Positions 2,784 to 10,851 of a stretch of DNA of 23,512 bases are shown here, one piece after another. The notes beneath the pieces are model-generated. The model did not search any database and was not told the origin of the DNA. It worked only from the letters and a program-made list of their open reading frames with translations. Position numbers and translations under genes: made by a program. Every line of letters starts with the position of its first letter. The first letter of the stretch is position 1. The stretch comes from a virus. The stretch covers positions 1-23,512 of IMG/VR virus record IMGVR_UViG_3300046692_000320; one strand, written 5' to 3'.

Positions 2784-3947
2784 ATGCCGATCCCCGCTTC
2801 GATCAATGACCTTTCGACAACCGCCGGGAGCAATAGCCCGGCAGGCTCTGAATCGCCGTCGCTCATCGACGACTACCTGCGCACCTATGCATCATACATC
2901 GCCCAGTTGCGCGATGGCTCGCAGGGTAACGCCTTTAATTATGCGGCAGCTGGCGGCTCAGCCAATGCGATCACGGCGACCTATTCCCCTGCGGTTACCG
3001 CGCTCAGCGATAGCACCGTTCTGCTTGTCAAGGCCGCATCGTTTAACACTGGGGCCACCACCTTCAGCCCTAACGGATTGACGGCCAAGCCCATTGTTGG
3101 CGTCGGGCATGCTGCGCTGGCTGGCGGCGAGATCGTGGCCAATGGCGACGTGTGCCTGCAGTACAACTCTAGCATCGGCGGTGGCTCCTGGGTGCTGATC
3201 TCCAGCTCTGGTGGAACCATTCCGGTGCCTACTGCCGGCCTGGCTCGCAACATCAGGGCGTATGTCGCCACCGCCTCGGCGTCCGCCACGTTTACGGCTG
3301 ATGAGGTGTGTGTCGAGGTAGCTATGGGTAGCCTCGGGTACAAGCTCACCTCCTTGAACAAAGTCATCAACCTGGCCACAACTGGCGCGGGCGGTATGGA
3401 CACCGGAACCGCGCCAGTTTCTGGGTTTGTAGGGATCTATGCGATTTACAACCCCGGCACCGCAACGGCAGCTCTGCTGGCAGTCAATGCAAACGCCGCG
3501 GTGGGCCATGTCTATGGCGGGGCCAACATGCCGTCAGGCTATATCGCCTCAGGCCTCATCGCGGTGCTGCCCACCAACGCCAGTAGCCAGTTTCTGCCTG
3601 TGCTGTTGCGCGACCGGAGGGTCAGCTTTTCGCCAAGAACAGCAATTTCTACAAACACCATGGCGGGGACACCAACCGCGCTCTCTGTCTCAGGTTCAAT
3701 TCCGGCAAACGCAATATCGGTCGGTGGTAGTTTCGGCTTAACCAGCACCGCCACTAGCAACCTGAGCACAACTCTGTCTGAAGATGCTGTCAATGCATTG
3801 GCCAGCGCTCAGTTCGGATTAAATGGCGTGACGATGGTTAACCCATTTGAACTAGGTGTCACCGCCGCCCAGTTCATTTATTACCAGTGCGCAAGCTCGG
3901 CCGGCACCCCGACCTACAGCATCAACATCACTTCTTACAGGTTCTGA
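2784..3947 (+). CDS. tail fibre protein
   Basis: A 387-residue protein. The N-terminus (INDLSTTAGSNSPAGSESPS, then LIDDYLRTYASYIAQLRDG) is the virion-attachment segment common to tail fibres of many Pseudomonas and enteric phages. The body is rich in Ser, Thr, Ala, Gly and Asn with short beta-prone repeats (for example SFNTGATTFSPNG and TAKPIVGVGH), typical of trimeric fibre shafts, and ends in an aromatic-rich tip. It should sit at the tail tip and contact the host surface. The ATG at 2784 has only a weak ribosome-binding site (GGGATG). It lies between internal virion genes and a small fibre-associated gene. The receptor cannot be told from sequence. Confidence 0.8.
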   Translation: MPIPASINDLSTTAGSNSPAGSESPSLIDDYLRTYASYIAQLRDGSQGNAFNYAAAGGSANAITATYSPAVTALSDSTVLLVKAASFNTGATTFSPNGLTAKPIVGVGHAALAGGEIVANGDVCLQYNSSIGGGSWVLISSSGGTIPVPTAGLARNIRAYVATASASATFTADEVCVEVAMGSLGYKLTSLNKVINLATTGAGGMDTGTAPVSGFVGIYAIYNPGTATAALLAVNANAAVGHVYGGANMPSGYIASGLIAVLPTNASSQFLPVLLRDRRVSFSPRTAISTNTMAGTPTALSVSGSIPANAISVGGSFGLTSTATSNLSTTLSEDAVNALASAQFGLNGVTMVNPFELGVTAAQFIYYQCASSAGTPTYSINITSYRF

Positions 3948-3948
3948 T

Positions 3949-4176
3949 ATGACCACTTTCTTTGTGCAGTTTGAAGATGACAAAGAGCTGAAGATTGTTT
4001 CTGTGTTCGGCAACCAGCAGGACGCTGATGTGTACCCTAACCAAGGAGTCGTTGCCGATAATGATCCTCGCTACTTGGCATTCATTAATCCGCCGCCTGT
4101 GATCGTCACAAATCCACTGGACAAGTTGAAAGCATTTTTGCTGGCCAATCCTGATGTTGCCGCCATCCTGGAATAG
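3949..4176 (+). CDS. small tail-fibre-associated protein
   Basis: 75 residues, starting one base after the tail fibre stop. The frame is open further upstream, but the ATG at 3949 is the only start that does not run through the fibre gene. The sequence begins MTTFFVQFEDDKELKIVSVF and ends with a hydrophobic helix containing LDKLKAFLLANPDVAAIL. That ending recurs in small proteins encoded directly after tail fibres in Pseudomonas phages. Position suggests a fibre assembly chaperone or minor tail component; no catalytic motif is visible. The family assignment is by resemblance and location. Confidence 0.7.
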   Translation: MTTFFVQFEDDKELKIVSVFGNQQDADVYPNQGVVADNDPRYLAFINPPPVIVTNPLDKLKAFLLANPDVAAILE

Positions 4177-4195
4177 CGCTTGTTGCAAGAAAAGC

Positions 4196-4221
4196 ACCCG
4201 CCATAGAGCGGGTTTATTTTT
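4196..4221 (+). terminator. rho-independent terminator after the tail genes
   Basis: Stem ACCCGC/GCGGGT with loop CATAGA, followed by TTATTTTT. It lies just after the fibre-associated gene and 15 bases before the endolysin remnant. Confidence 0.6.
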
Positions 4222-4235
4222 GCCTGGAGAAAGCC

Positions 4236-4322
4236 ATGCCCATCACCGCGCAGCAACTGCTGCAGATCCTCCCAAACGCCGGCAAACAAGCCGGCGTTTT
4301 TGCGTCTGCATTATGCAGCTGA
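4236..4322 (+). pseudogene. 5' remnant of a GH19-type phage endolysin gene
   Basis: A well-formed start (GGAGA at 4226-4230, 5 bases before ATG 4236) opens a frame of only 28 codons. Its first 22 residues, MPITAQQLLQILPNAGKQAG and on, look like the N-terminus of chitinase-class (GH19) endolysins of Pseudomonas and related phages, which normally continue for about 180-200 residues. Similarity stops after GVF, and the frame ends at TGA 4320, about where the opposite-strand HNH gene ends (4311). No other GH19 part is seen downstream; instead a lambda R-type lysozyme follows at 5075. I read this as the stump of a replaced endolysin. It may still be translated as a short peptide. Confidence 0.65.
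4274..4301 (+). terminator. strong hairpin inside the endolysin remnant, terminator-like
   Basis: A perfect 10-bp stem (AAACGCCGGC/GCCGGCGTTT, loop AAACAA) ends in a run of five T. It arises from codons of the GH19 remnant (NAGKQAG). On the minus strand it lies just beyond the end of the HNH gene. Whether it terminates on either strand is unknown. Confidence 0.45.
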
Positions 4323-5042
4323 CCTTCGATCCTTCCGCAGATATGACTCCTTGTCCCTGCGTGAAGGCAATCGGTCGCTCTGAGTAACTGCCAGCTCAAT
4401 GGGTATGCCGGCTTTGATCCGGTAGTGAGCGGTGGTTAGCTTTACTCCGAAGTGCCTGCATGCGTGGCCGATGCTGTTGAAGAGGACGCCGTCGATCTCA
4501 ATTTTGGTCAGGCCTCGACGGTTCTCGGCGCCTTGCTCCTGGACGGTTGCCCAGCGGCAGTTTTCCGGGGAGTAGTCCTTGTCCGACTCTTTTCGGTCGA
4601 TGCTGTATTGGCCAGCAGGACGCAGACCCATGTCTTCCAGGAAGTTTTCGAACGAGTGCAGCCAGCGCTCACAAACCCTGATGCCCCGGCCGCCCCAGTT
4701 TGGGTAATCCTTGAATTTCTCGTCGTAACACCTGCGCTTCATTCCCAGCCAAGTCTTGTATTCGACCGAGACCTTTCCTTTGCGTTTGTGTCCGTGAGTT
4801 ACCGATCGTTCGGCGCGGATTTTGATGAAGTCCTGATTGGAGCCCATGGAAGAGGCCCACTCAGTCGCCAGGCAACCACAGGACTTTGTTCCTCCTCGGC
4901 GTAGATGTCCTGAGTTAAATGCCGCCTCTTTCCCACAGTCGCAACGACAAAGCCACATCGAGCCTCCGTTCTTGGCAATCCCCGCGTAGCTGATCACCAA
5001 AAGACGGCCATAGCGAAGCCCGGAAATATCAATCCGTTTCAT
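4311..5042 (-). CDS. HNH-type (homing-like) endonuclease with N-terminal Cys motif and C-terminal DNA-binding repeat
   Basis: 243 residues, opposite in strand to the surrounding late genes. Residues 32-36 (CRCDC) and 55-57 (CGC) form a Cys cluster that could hold a metal. Residues 95-170 carry the hallmarks of a phage-spread endonuclease family: YKTWLGMKRRCY, NWGGRGIRVCERW, SIDRKES and NCRWATVQEQ. The tail (about 183-220) resembles a NUMOD/IENR-type helix-turn-helix that helps site recognition. The start at 5042 has AGGTG upstream. The gene lies exactly between the GH19 remnant and the lysozyme, as expected if an endonuclease gene moved with, or promoted, exchange of the lysis module. Free-standing phage HNH enzymes of this kind cut unrelated or cognate DNA and spread by recombination; this one's target is unknown. 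Confidence 0.85.
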   Translation of the reverse strand: MKRIDISGLRYGRLLVISYAGIAKNGGSMWLCRCDCGKEAAFNSGHLRRGGTKSCGCLATEWASSMGSNQDFIKIRAERSVTHGHKRKGKVSVEYKTWLGMKRRCYDEKFKDYPNWGGRGIRVCERWLHSFENFLEDMGLRPAGQYSIDRKESDKDYSPENCRWATVQEQGAENRRGLTKIEIDGVLFNSIGHACRHFGVKLTTAHYRIKAGIPIELAVTQSDRLPSRRDKESYLRKDRRSAA

Positions 5043-5074
5043 TTGCGCACCTATATGTATTGGAGGACGGCCTG

Positions 5075-5569
5075 ATGGCAGTCGTTAGCGAAAAAACAGC
5101 GGGGAGCAGAAACGCGATTGCGTTCCTGGACATGCTTGCGTGGTCAGAAGGGACGTCGACGAGTAAGTACACACGTGACGATGGGTACGACGTTGTGGTT
5201 GGCGGGATTGATAGCCCGAACACGTTTGGCAGCTATGCCGATCACCCGGGTATTCTTGTCTCAGTGAACAAGGCTGGGCTCAAGTCGACTGCGGCGGGCC
5301 GGTACCAGCTGCTGAAACGCTGGTGGACTGCCTACCGTAAATCGCTCTCGCTGAAAGACTTCTCGCCATTGAGCCAAGACCTGGTCGCGCTCCAGCAGAT
5401 CCGCGAACGTTCCGCGCTGGCGGACATCCATTCTGGGCGAATCGCTTCGGCGATCGAGAAGTGCTCGAACATCTGGGCAAGCCTTCCAGGGAACAATTAT
5501 GGGCAACGAATGCATAAGCCGGAAGACCTGCTGTCGCGCTTCGTGGCGTTGGGCGGGGTGCTGGCATGA
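5075..5569 (+). CDS. R: endolysin, lambda R-type lysozyme (murein transglycosylase)
   Basis: 164 residues, close to lambda R (158). The frame is open to a TTG at 5060, but GGAGG at 5062-5066 selects the ATG at 5075. Conserved blocks include AFLDMLAWSEGTSTSKYTR, with the catalytic Glu at about residue 25, then YDVVVGG, STAAGRYQLLKRWWTAYRK, DLVALQQIRER and CSNIWASLPGNNYGQ. Lambda R cleaves the glycan strands and forms 1,6-anhydro ends. There is no signal or signal-anchor sequence, so it needs a holin to reach the wall; none is visible in the window. It overlaps Rz by 4 bases. Confidence 0.92.
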   Translation: MAVVSEKTAGSRNAIAFLDMLAWSEGTSTSKYTRDDGYDVVVGGIDSPNTFGSYADHPGILVSVNKAGLKSTAAGRYQLLKRWWTAYRKSLSLKDFSPLSQDLVALQQIRERSALADIHSGRIASAIEKCSNIWASLPGNNYGQRMHKPEDLLSRFVALGGVLA

Positions 5570-6081
5570 CTTCCATCTGGCTGCGAATCCTTCCTTATAT
5601 AGCTGCGCTGGCTCTGGTGGCCGGTGCGCTGTTCGGCGCCTACCACCATGGCGTGAGTGTCACAGACGCAACATGGAAGTCAGCATGGGACGCACGCGAC
5701 ACATTGGACGCTGAAGCCCGGGCCGCCAATGAGGCAACCGAGCGCGCCAAAGAACAGGCCTACCAACAGTCAATCAACAAGGCGATTCAAGATGGCCAAC
5801 GCACGATCGATCAAGTCACTGCTGACGCTGCTACCGCTCGCGCTGCTGCTGACGGCCTGCGCGGGGCAGCCGACAACCTTGCCAGTCGCCTCGCAGCCAG
5901 TGAAGCCAGCGGCAATTCCTGCACTGCCGCTGCAAGCAAGGCAGCTACCCGCGCCGCAATGGTGTTGGCCGACGTGCTCAAGCGGGTTGATCAACGAGCG
6001 GGCGATTTGGCTGAGATTGCTGACCAGGCCAGAGCCAGGGGAGTGACCTGCGAGATGGCGTATGACGGAATATCGAAGTAG
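5566..6081 (+). CDS. Rz: Rz-like inner-membrane spanin
   Basis: 171 residues starting in the ATGA overlap with the lysozyme stop. A single N-terminal membrane segment (about residues 7-28, ILPYIAALALVAGALFGAYH) is followed by a long Ala/Glu/Gln-rich periplasmic coiled coil (about 40-115), then two Cys residues (in SGNSC and VTCEM). This is the i-spanin plan: it pairs with the Rz1 lipoprotein across the periplasm to fuse the two membranes in the last step of lysis. It resembles the DUF2514 group of Pseudomonas phage Rz proteins. The Rz1 gene is nested inside it in the +1 frame. Confidence 0.85.
   Translation: MTSIWLRILPYIAALALVAGALFGAYHHGVSVTDATWKSAWDARDTLDAEARAANEATERAKEQAYQQSINKAIQDGQRTIDQVTADAATARAAADGLRGAADNLASRLAASEASGNSCTAAASKAATRAAMVLADVLKRVDQRAGDLAEIADQARARGVTCEMAYDGISK
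5792..6046 (+). CDS. Rz1: Rz1-like outer-membrane spanin lipoprotein, nested inside Rz
   Basis: 84 residues read entirely within Rz in the +1 frame, from ATG 5792. The N-terminus (MANARSIKSLLTLLPLALL, then LTAC) is a lipoprotein signal peptide with Cys23 as the lipidated residue. The mature part is rich in Pro, Ala and Gln (AGQPTTLPVASQPVKPAAIP), as is usual for Rz1. The frame is open further upstream, but only this start gives a lipobox at the right depth. The complete nested arrangement matches lambda and makes the spanin pair convincing. The mature protein is somewhat long for Rz1. Confidence 0.82.
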   Translation: MANARSIKSLLTLLPLALLLTACAGQPTTLPVASQPVKPAAIPALPLQARQLPAPQWCWPTCSSGLINERAIWLRLLTRPEPGE

Positions 6082-6114: not shown

Positions 6115-6318
6115 TAGCTGAAAAGCTGCTGAAAGCGAAACGAATCCGCATCGATCCGCAGCGACTTTCAGCAACATTCCAAGGTCCAGATGCAGCGAAA
6201 CCCGCACTGGGCGGGCTTCGTTGGTGTTTCAAATGGTGGAGCCGGGGGGATTTGAACCCCCGTCCCATGTGCGTATTTGTTGGCTGGAACGGCAAATGCT
6301 GCTGAAATGCTGCTGAAA
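6115..6318. other. attP: phage attachment site (attP) with ssrA 3'-end core and arm repeats
   Basis: The core at 6234-6265, read on the minus strand, starts GGACGGGGGTTCAAATCC and ends CGGCTCCACCA. It is a T-arm plus acceptor end and matches, as I remember it, the 3' end of Pseudomonas tmRNA. Sequence upstream of it does not continue the tmRNA, so it is a recombination core and not a gene. Short repeats flank it: TAGCTGAAA at 6115-6123, AGCTGCTGAAA at 6124-6134, an inverted TTTCAGCA at 6166-6173, and a tandem pair TGCTGCTGAAA at 6297-6307 and 6308-6318. These have the spacing and number expected of integrase arm-type sites on both sides of a core. The integrase gene is about 350 bases away. 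Confidence 0.8.
6201..6215 (+). terminator. weak hairpin after the lysis genes
   Basis: Stem CCCGC/GCGGG with loop ACTGG followed by CTTCGTT, 120 bases after Rz and just before the attachment core. It may end late transcription, but the T run is poor. Confidence 0.3.
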
Positions 6319-10552: not shown

Positions 10553-10851
10553 ACCTGAGCCCTCATAGACCGAAGCTGACTGTGGAATGTGGATCGGTGG
10601 AAGCCGACATGCTGCTCGACGTCGTACCAAGTCGAGCCGTGAGCCCGCATGTCGAGCGCCAAGGCCATGTAATCCGCCGTGAGCTGCTTGGGCTTGCCCT
10701 TGTTGCCGAGCACGATCCCGGCTGAATTGAGGTAGCGCACGACGGTGGGGTAGGAACATCCAGCCGCATCGGCAATGTGCTCGACCGAATGCCCCGTCGC
10801 GTGCATGCTGAAAATCAGCCCGATAGAGTCAGGAGATAACTTGGCTGTCAT
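10549..10851 (-). CDS. small DNA-binding protein with two helix-turn-helix motifs
   Basis: 100 residues from the ATG at 10851, which has GGAG 8 bases upstream. An extension to 10929 is open but would run through the zinc-finger gene at 10829-10990, so I prefer the short form. Two homeodomain-like helix-turn-helix units follow one another: TGHSVEHIADAAGCSYPTVV (about residues 19-38) and GSTWYDVEQHVGFHRSTFHS (about 71-90), joined by a Lys-rich linker. The two-unit plan suggests recognition of a bipartite site. It may regulate the early operon; the target is unknown. Confidence 0.72.
   Translation of the reverse strand: MTAKLSPDSIGLIFSMHATGHSVEHIADAAGCSYPTVVRYLNSAGIVLGNKGKPKQLTADYMALALDMRAHGSTWYDVEQHVGFHRSTFHSQLRSMRAQV

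Follow-up and report, generated by a model that had tools for sequence, protein, structure and literature searches.

A conserved hairpin in the coding start of GH19 endolysins at the left joint of lysis-gene exchange in Pseudomonas phages

Why should the first codons of a GH19 endolysin stand, with their own ribosome-binding site, in front of an antisense HNH endonuclease gene and a lysozyme of the lambda R family? This arrangement is found in the window, by which we mean the whole stretch of DNA analyzed, a 23.5-kb virus record (23,512 nucleotides) of the Pseudomonas prophage type. The original prediction read the locus as a captured replacement of one lysis enzyme by another, with the endonuclease gene in the exchanged segment, and the stump, the HNH gene, the lysozyme and a hairpin in the stump were all found where it had placed them. 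The features that the argument needs are the following.

3949–4176, + strand: small gene before the lysis segment (phrog_20339, function unknown), in the left flank common with contig L094
4196–4222, + strand: terminator-like hairpin T1, ACCCGC-CATAGA-GCGGGT with a U-tract, directly 5' of the ribosome-binding site
4226–4229, + strand: ribosome-binding site of the stump, GGAG, from the sequence
4236–4322, + strand: GH19 stump, an open reading frame of 28 codons plus TGA, with GH19 homology to codon 26 (4313)
4274–4301, + strand: hairpin T2 running into T5, codons 13–22 of the stump, from its fold and from covariation in intact GH19 genes
4313/4314: left junction of the exchanged segment, in GH19 codon 26, from the alignment with L094
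4311–5042, − strand: HNH endonuclease gene, 732 bp, 243 aa, antisense (phrog_374)
5075–5569, + strand: lambda R-type lysozyme, 164 aa, with ATG at 5075 and its stop ending at 5569
about 5557–5566: right junction, within the final codons of the lysin and its ATGA overlap with Rz, from identity with L106 and L042
5566–6081, + strand: Rz spanin (DUF2514), the right flank common to relatives

Exchange of a Lysis Segment behind a GH19 Start

The first 72 nt of the stump match an intact GH19 gene at 68 positions, and the order of stump, antisense HNH gene and R lysozyme recurs in phages D3, PMG1, phi297 and PSA04, which together exclude chance. The ribosome-binding site is retained as predicted, but the homology reaches codon 26 and not about codon 22. 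Codons 1–26 are all of GH19 that remains in the window, and the catalytic domain, which occupies residues 41–135 (PF00182) in the intact endolysin of phiPSA1, is absent. The HNH gene has the predicted length and strand, although it does not simply follow the stump: the two overlap, the HNH stop codon being the antisense of stump codon 26.

Relatives of the window allowed the exchange to be mapped on both sides. Over 3900–4235, the 336 nt that lead up to the start codon and include T1 and the ribosome-binding site, contig L094 (the same contig as L522) is 97% identical to the window; past the start codon its GH19 frame stays open for 73 codons to the contig end. In the alignment, the identity between the two ends at GH19 codon 26, at 4313/4314. 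On the right side, the GH19-bearing L106 and L042 regain identity with the window at 5557 and the GH24-bearing L299 at 5563. The junctions, which had been expected near 4305 and 5045, were thus placed at 4313/4314 and about 5557–5566. Because the left joint lies in GH19 codon 26 and the right joint at the start of Rz, the exchanged segment is about 1.25 kb long, and it contains the antisense HNH gene and the R lysozyme. A GH19 start has been joined here to a foreign lysis segment. The GH19 endolysins of phiPSA1, MR13 and Fyn8 ("pyocin R2_PP") begin with the same 26 codons as the stump and have a like ribosome-binding site and a like embedded hairpin, T1 being common to the window, phiPSA1 and MR13; compared with such intact genes, the window has everything past codon 26 replaced.

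Both genes of the segment are under purifying selection, with dN/dS of 0.09 for HNH and 0.07 for the R lysozyme (window vs. L130). The HNH-type domain was identified by profile (phrog_374, E 3.3e-67; phrog_3377, E 2.2e-49), and a weak match to the I-TevI DNA-binding domain (E 5.6e-5) was below the cut-off. A lysozyme profile built from seven homologues matched the lambda R family (PDB 1am7 and 3d3d) at E of about 2e-65 and nearly full length (positions 15–163 of 164), the window copy differing in its place behind both a GH19 stump and an HNH gene on the other strand. Residues S24-E25-G26-T27 are invariant among the seven homologues, and we take this SEGT motif, predicted here from sequence, to hold the active-site glutamate of lambda R lysozyme. 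Matches to HNH among other Pseudomonas genomes were distant ones alone, in 3 of 399. The related HNH protein of L131 resembles that of the window from residue 83 on and differs in its first 82 residues, so the HNH genes at the joint are themselves mosaic. In D14O (L005, 2258–2881), HNH matches residues 1–130 of the D3 protein (93%) and is then rearranged; R is present, and the stump and hairpin are missing.

To the right of the joint, the Rz gene encloses, in a different reading frame, an 84-aa frame at 5792–6046 (+ strand) whose start is lipobox-like (MANARSIKSLLTLLPLALLLTACAGQ) and which by its appearance is an embedded Rz1 spanin. Between Rz and the integrase gene, positions 6237–6275 (GGATTTGAACCCCCGTCC) resemble the 3' half of a tRNA gene and are a possible attachment site; ARAGORN reported no tRNA within the window.

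The Same Joint in Other Phages

D3, PMG1, phi297 and PSA04 share the gene order with the window and have the junction at a nearly equal position, while the segment DNA is about 67% identical. Their stump allele is the P. aeruginosa GH19 type (PRAGVFVGA), unlike that of the window, and comes without T1; the upstream neighbor is an O-antigen polymerase in D3 and a tail gene in PSA04, and the window differs from both. The stump is unannotated in all four records. Between the window and D3, the DNA is 90% identical in the stump before the hairpin, 66% in HNH and 64% in R. The order of stump, HNH and R is old, since the synonymous sites of HNH are saturated (dS 2.6) whereas the stump is still 90% identical. 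The predicted replacement of a lysis enzyme is therefore upheld as an exchange, but not as a fresh capture or a mere scar. The greater conservation of the stump could reflect selection on it, refreshment from intact genes, or both.

Other pairs of relatives use the same place. Fyn8 has the left flank of D3 (94% over 1.9 kb) yet an intact GH19 gene; the two diverge directly 3' of the hairpin and rejoin within the last 22 nt of the lysozyme gene, and are thus a second pair with breakpoints as in the window. L391 and PSA04 are 96% identical over 400 nt upstream, after which L391 has GH24 and PSA04 has HNH and R. In the 41 nt of the stump that precede the hairpin, D3 has five differences from PSA04, whereas the HNH and R genes of the two phages are 99.3% and 99.6% identical and their upstream DNA is unrelated, which implies crossovers inside the stump.

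Three P. aeruginosa phages, YMC11/07/P54 (L527, 1829–2761), vB_Pae_CF23a (L528, 1834–2806) and phita81A (L530, 1831–2788), have another antisense gene in the place of HNH, directly behind the GH19 stump. This gene is annotated as an antirepressor in L527 and L528, and the U-tract of the stump has been lost in all three. The spot behind the GH19 stump seems to attract antisense cargo genes. On the minus strand of L113, near 10699–10748, a D3-like left flank is followed by two GH19 starts 49 bp apart with N between them and an intact GH19 frame 3' of the doubled starts; since the doubled start is probably an assembly join, L113 was left out of the evidence.

GH19 Remnants before Other Lysozymes

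We fetched 168 lysozyme loci (80 GH24 and 88 R) by protein alone and sought any part of GH19 around each lysin start, over 2 kb on the upstream side and 1.2 kb on the downstream side. The search found 17 remnants, every one of which starts at residue 1 and ends at residues 22–28; none was found in the 80 R loci of bacterial genomes. The independent events are fewer than 17, as the remnants fall into few junction classes, to which the antirepressor type was added from P. aeruginosa phage records:

Class A: leader of 26–27 codons ending VSGA, VHGA or MPGV, before GH24 (two subfamilies) or R without HNH
Class B: L314 and L315, with the break inside the hairpin
Class C: L322 and L324, ending FASGTNRRHQP
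Class D: HNH and R, the window type
Class E: break at the stem end, an antisense antirepressor gene following the stump

The breaks of all classes lie about −3 to +18 nt relative to the stem end. In class A, the last leader codons contain the GGAG for the next gene, whose ATG stands 2–3 nt past the leader stop. A frame of this length conserved away from HNH had been counted as evidence against the original prediction; such stumps are indeed found before GH24 and R lysozymes that have no HNH in the vicinity, and HNH is therefore not needed for the swap. As most stump types lack it, we rejected HNH as the cause of every stump. Several swaps have used this joint, that of the window among them.

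The stump of L047 is identical to an intact GH19 start at 72 of 72 positions, and the upstream DNA differs right up to the start codon in L130, L131, D3 and PSA04. In L386, the leader frame is broken by a stop codon, yet the hairpin and GGAG are kept.

A Conserved Hairpin in the Coding Start of GH19

T2 in the window consists of a 10-bp stem (4274–4283 with 4290–4299) and a 6-nt loop (4284–4289), with a folding energy of −18.4 kcal/mol and a z score of −4.1. Its T5 run covers 4297–4301, and T makes up 5 of the 9 nt that follow the GC stem. T2 is absent from the output of a consensus terminator scan of the window, since three of its five Ts are consumed by the 10-bp stem, and the hairpin had no match in Rfam. 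The predicted 10-bp hairpin ending in T5 is thus present, but the suggestion that it might now serve as a terminator puts its origin in the wrong place, as hairpin and U-tract are already strongly conserved in intact GH19 genes. A hairpin newly made by the remnant was rejected likewise, since the intact genes carry T2 in codons 14–23.

A query from which the first 44 codons had been omitted was used to collect intact GH19 genes, of which 62 remained once redundancy was removed. The excess synonymous identity was 0.36 in codons 10–25, in comparison with 0.07–0.09 in codons 26–177. All nine stem pairs stand in 58 of the 62 genes, against 0.75% of synonymous randomizations, and nine pairs together with at least six U in eight positions are found in 45 of the 62, against 0.13%; the latter comparison rejects the view that protein sequence and codon bias produce the hairpin by themselves. 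Codon choice points the same way: V21 is GTT in 60 and F22 is TTT in 58 of the genes, though F44 is TTC in 60. A change of residue 16 from Gly to Arg (GGC to CGC) goes with a synonymous change of Ala19 from GCC to GCG that restores the pair. Across the arms, 67 genes have G–C, 24 have C–G and none is mixed (91 of 91 matched). In a tree built from the remainder of the protein, the stem has switched at least seven times, three of the switches being on well-supported branches, and a formal pair test was not significant (P = 0.25).

A pattern leaving both arms free matched in 187 of 399 Pseudomonas genomes, and the matches listed, read by eye, were all of one of two complementary forms; a reversed-pattern control gave no match among the matches listed. 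When 30 of the free-arm loci were translated, 29 were intact GH19 starts and one a decayed GH19 gene. Outside Pseudomonas, among 369 genomes of the class, the sole match was the Pseudomonas center genome, and most of the distant GH19 genes examined are without T2. T2 in intact GH19 genes is thus old and selected, at synonymous sites and by compensatory changes.

The upstream hairpin is also common. Of the 62 GH19 genes, 50 have a T1-like hairpin in the 70 nt preceding the start, in comparison with 6% of random 80-mers, and none of the 62 GH19 stop regions has one; such a hairpin also precedes 25 of the 33 Pseudomonas R genes that have no stump. The T1 region has, in addition, a terminator-like form listed on the minus strand. 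The distance from T1 to GGAG is mostly 11–13 nt, and that from the T2 stem end to the GGAG of the next lysin in class A is always 12 nt. The class A stump thereby repeats the usual layout of hairpin, U-tract, GGAG and start.

Within the stumps, T2 is less uniform. It has decayed to six or seven of the nine pairs in L308, L310 and L312, and its 3' arm is cut in L314 and L315. A hairpin kept in every stump was accordingly rejected, several being without arms or U-tract, and a tally of 23 of 23 stumps with the hairpin is biased because those stumps were found by the hairpin pattern. Counted by eye, 6 of the 15 stumps that have T1 show decay, as do 2 of the 14 that lack it, too few to claim that decay is limited to the former. 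The stumps may be alike through refreshment by recombination with intact genes.

Discussion

The reading that we favor, and hold to be somewhat probable, is that a terminator-like attenuator is built into the GH19 endolysin start, which also serves as the left joint for the exchange of lysis genes. The GH19 5' element comprises the ribosome-binding site, the start codon and the GC-rich T2 with its U-tract, along with T1 in most cases, and the stump serves in this reading as the constant left joint for a lysis segment that can be exchanged up to the start of Rz. T2 would act as an intrinsic terminator or attenuator restraining transcription from the tail operon into the lysis genes, and late antitermination or close ribosome coupling would let the polymerase past it. 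If T2 is both kept and used as a homology joint, the survival of the remnant would be explained. HNH may promote the spread of the segment that encodes it, but exchange occurs also in its absence. Termination at T2, like any role of HNH in the swap, is what we infer from these patterns. Against a strict need for T2 in stumps stand L308, L310, L312, L314, L315 and the antirepressor class, which have lost pairs or the U-tract, and D14O, which has no stump.

The crossovers in the stumps of D3 and PSA04, the perfect match of L047 to an intact gene and the upstream DNA that differs up to the start codon would all be expected if the stump were a recombination joint alone: 80–100 nt of homology at which phage recombinases exchange lysis modules, with a hairpin that is nonregulatory in the stump and kept there by refreshment from intact GH19 genes. 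This account leaves unexplained the synonymous-site conservation and covarying arms in intact genes, as well as the hairpin and GGAG behind the broken leader of L386, and we consider it unlikely. About equally improbable is homing driven by HNH, in which the enzyme cuts the GH19 gene of a coinfecting phage near codon 25–26 and repair copies in HNH and R, leaving the stump as the uncut left side of the target. The junction at codon 25/26 in both lineages, stumps matching the local GH19 allele up to the junction, the occurrence of HNH and R in several upstream contexts, and the purifying selection on HNH with its weak I-TevI match are consistent with homing, but stumps of equal length are found ahead of GH24 and R lysozymes without HNH, and ahead of antirepressor genes.

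Two further explanations concern the stump as such, and both appear very improbable. The 26–28-residue product, or its translation, might be kept for coupling translation to the next lysin; the GGAG-type stumps, with the next ribosome-binding site in their last codons, the next ATG 2–3 nt past the stop and a constant spacing from stem end to GGAG, agree with such a leader peptide. In the window and D3, however, the next sense gene lies beyond an antisense gene, at a distance of more than 700 nt; in L386 the hairpin is kept and the leader frame is broken, and GH19 itself selects the N-terminal residues anyway. If, on the other hand, the stump were a decaying leftover without function, the decayed hairpins of a few stumps and the loss of the stump in D14O would be natural, but neither its 90% identity between the window and D3 across saturated HNH sites nor the shared ends of all remnants would be.

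What looked like a one-off scar becomes a testable rule: lysis-gene exchange in Pseudomonas phages takes place at a fixed left joint directly behind the coding hairpin. We more tentatively propose that the GH19 coding start in these phages is dual-use, a protein start and a transcription attenuator, and has become a standard port for unrelated lysis enzymes with or without moron genes; the element would have to be kept and would for that reason be the port for enzyme exchange, lysis control being conserved through changes of enzyme. Should T2 terminate or attenuate transcription, lysis control would sit in the coding start of the enzyme and outlast the enzyme's replacement. The same reading would account for unannotated frames of 26–28 codons in well-known phages such as D3. 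Apparent debris can be the most conserved piece of a swapped locus, and the conserved hairpin in the endolysin start is a more interesting object than the swap. In the open-access literature, the scope of our search, we found no description of the stump or hairpin element.

The locus can be compared with two kinds of known system. In intronless homing, a free-standing HNH homing endonuclease gene lies beside a site that differs between related phages; HNH of the window likewise stands beside a variable site, but exchange of this kind occurs also without HNH. The closer parallel is with lysis genes behind terminators. AlpA of P. aeruginosa makes the polymerase bypass intrinsic terminators before lysis genes (PMC7969949), and in the AlpA-controlled and lambda Q systems, lysis genes similarly stand behind intrinsic terminators that an antiterminator overcomes (PMC7969949). 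In these systems, the terminator lies upstream of the gene, whereas T2 of the window lies inside the coding start.
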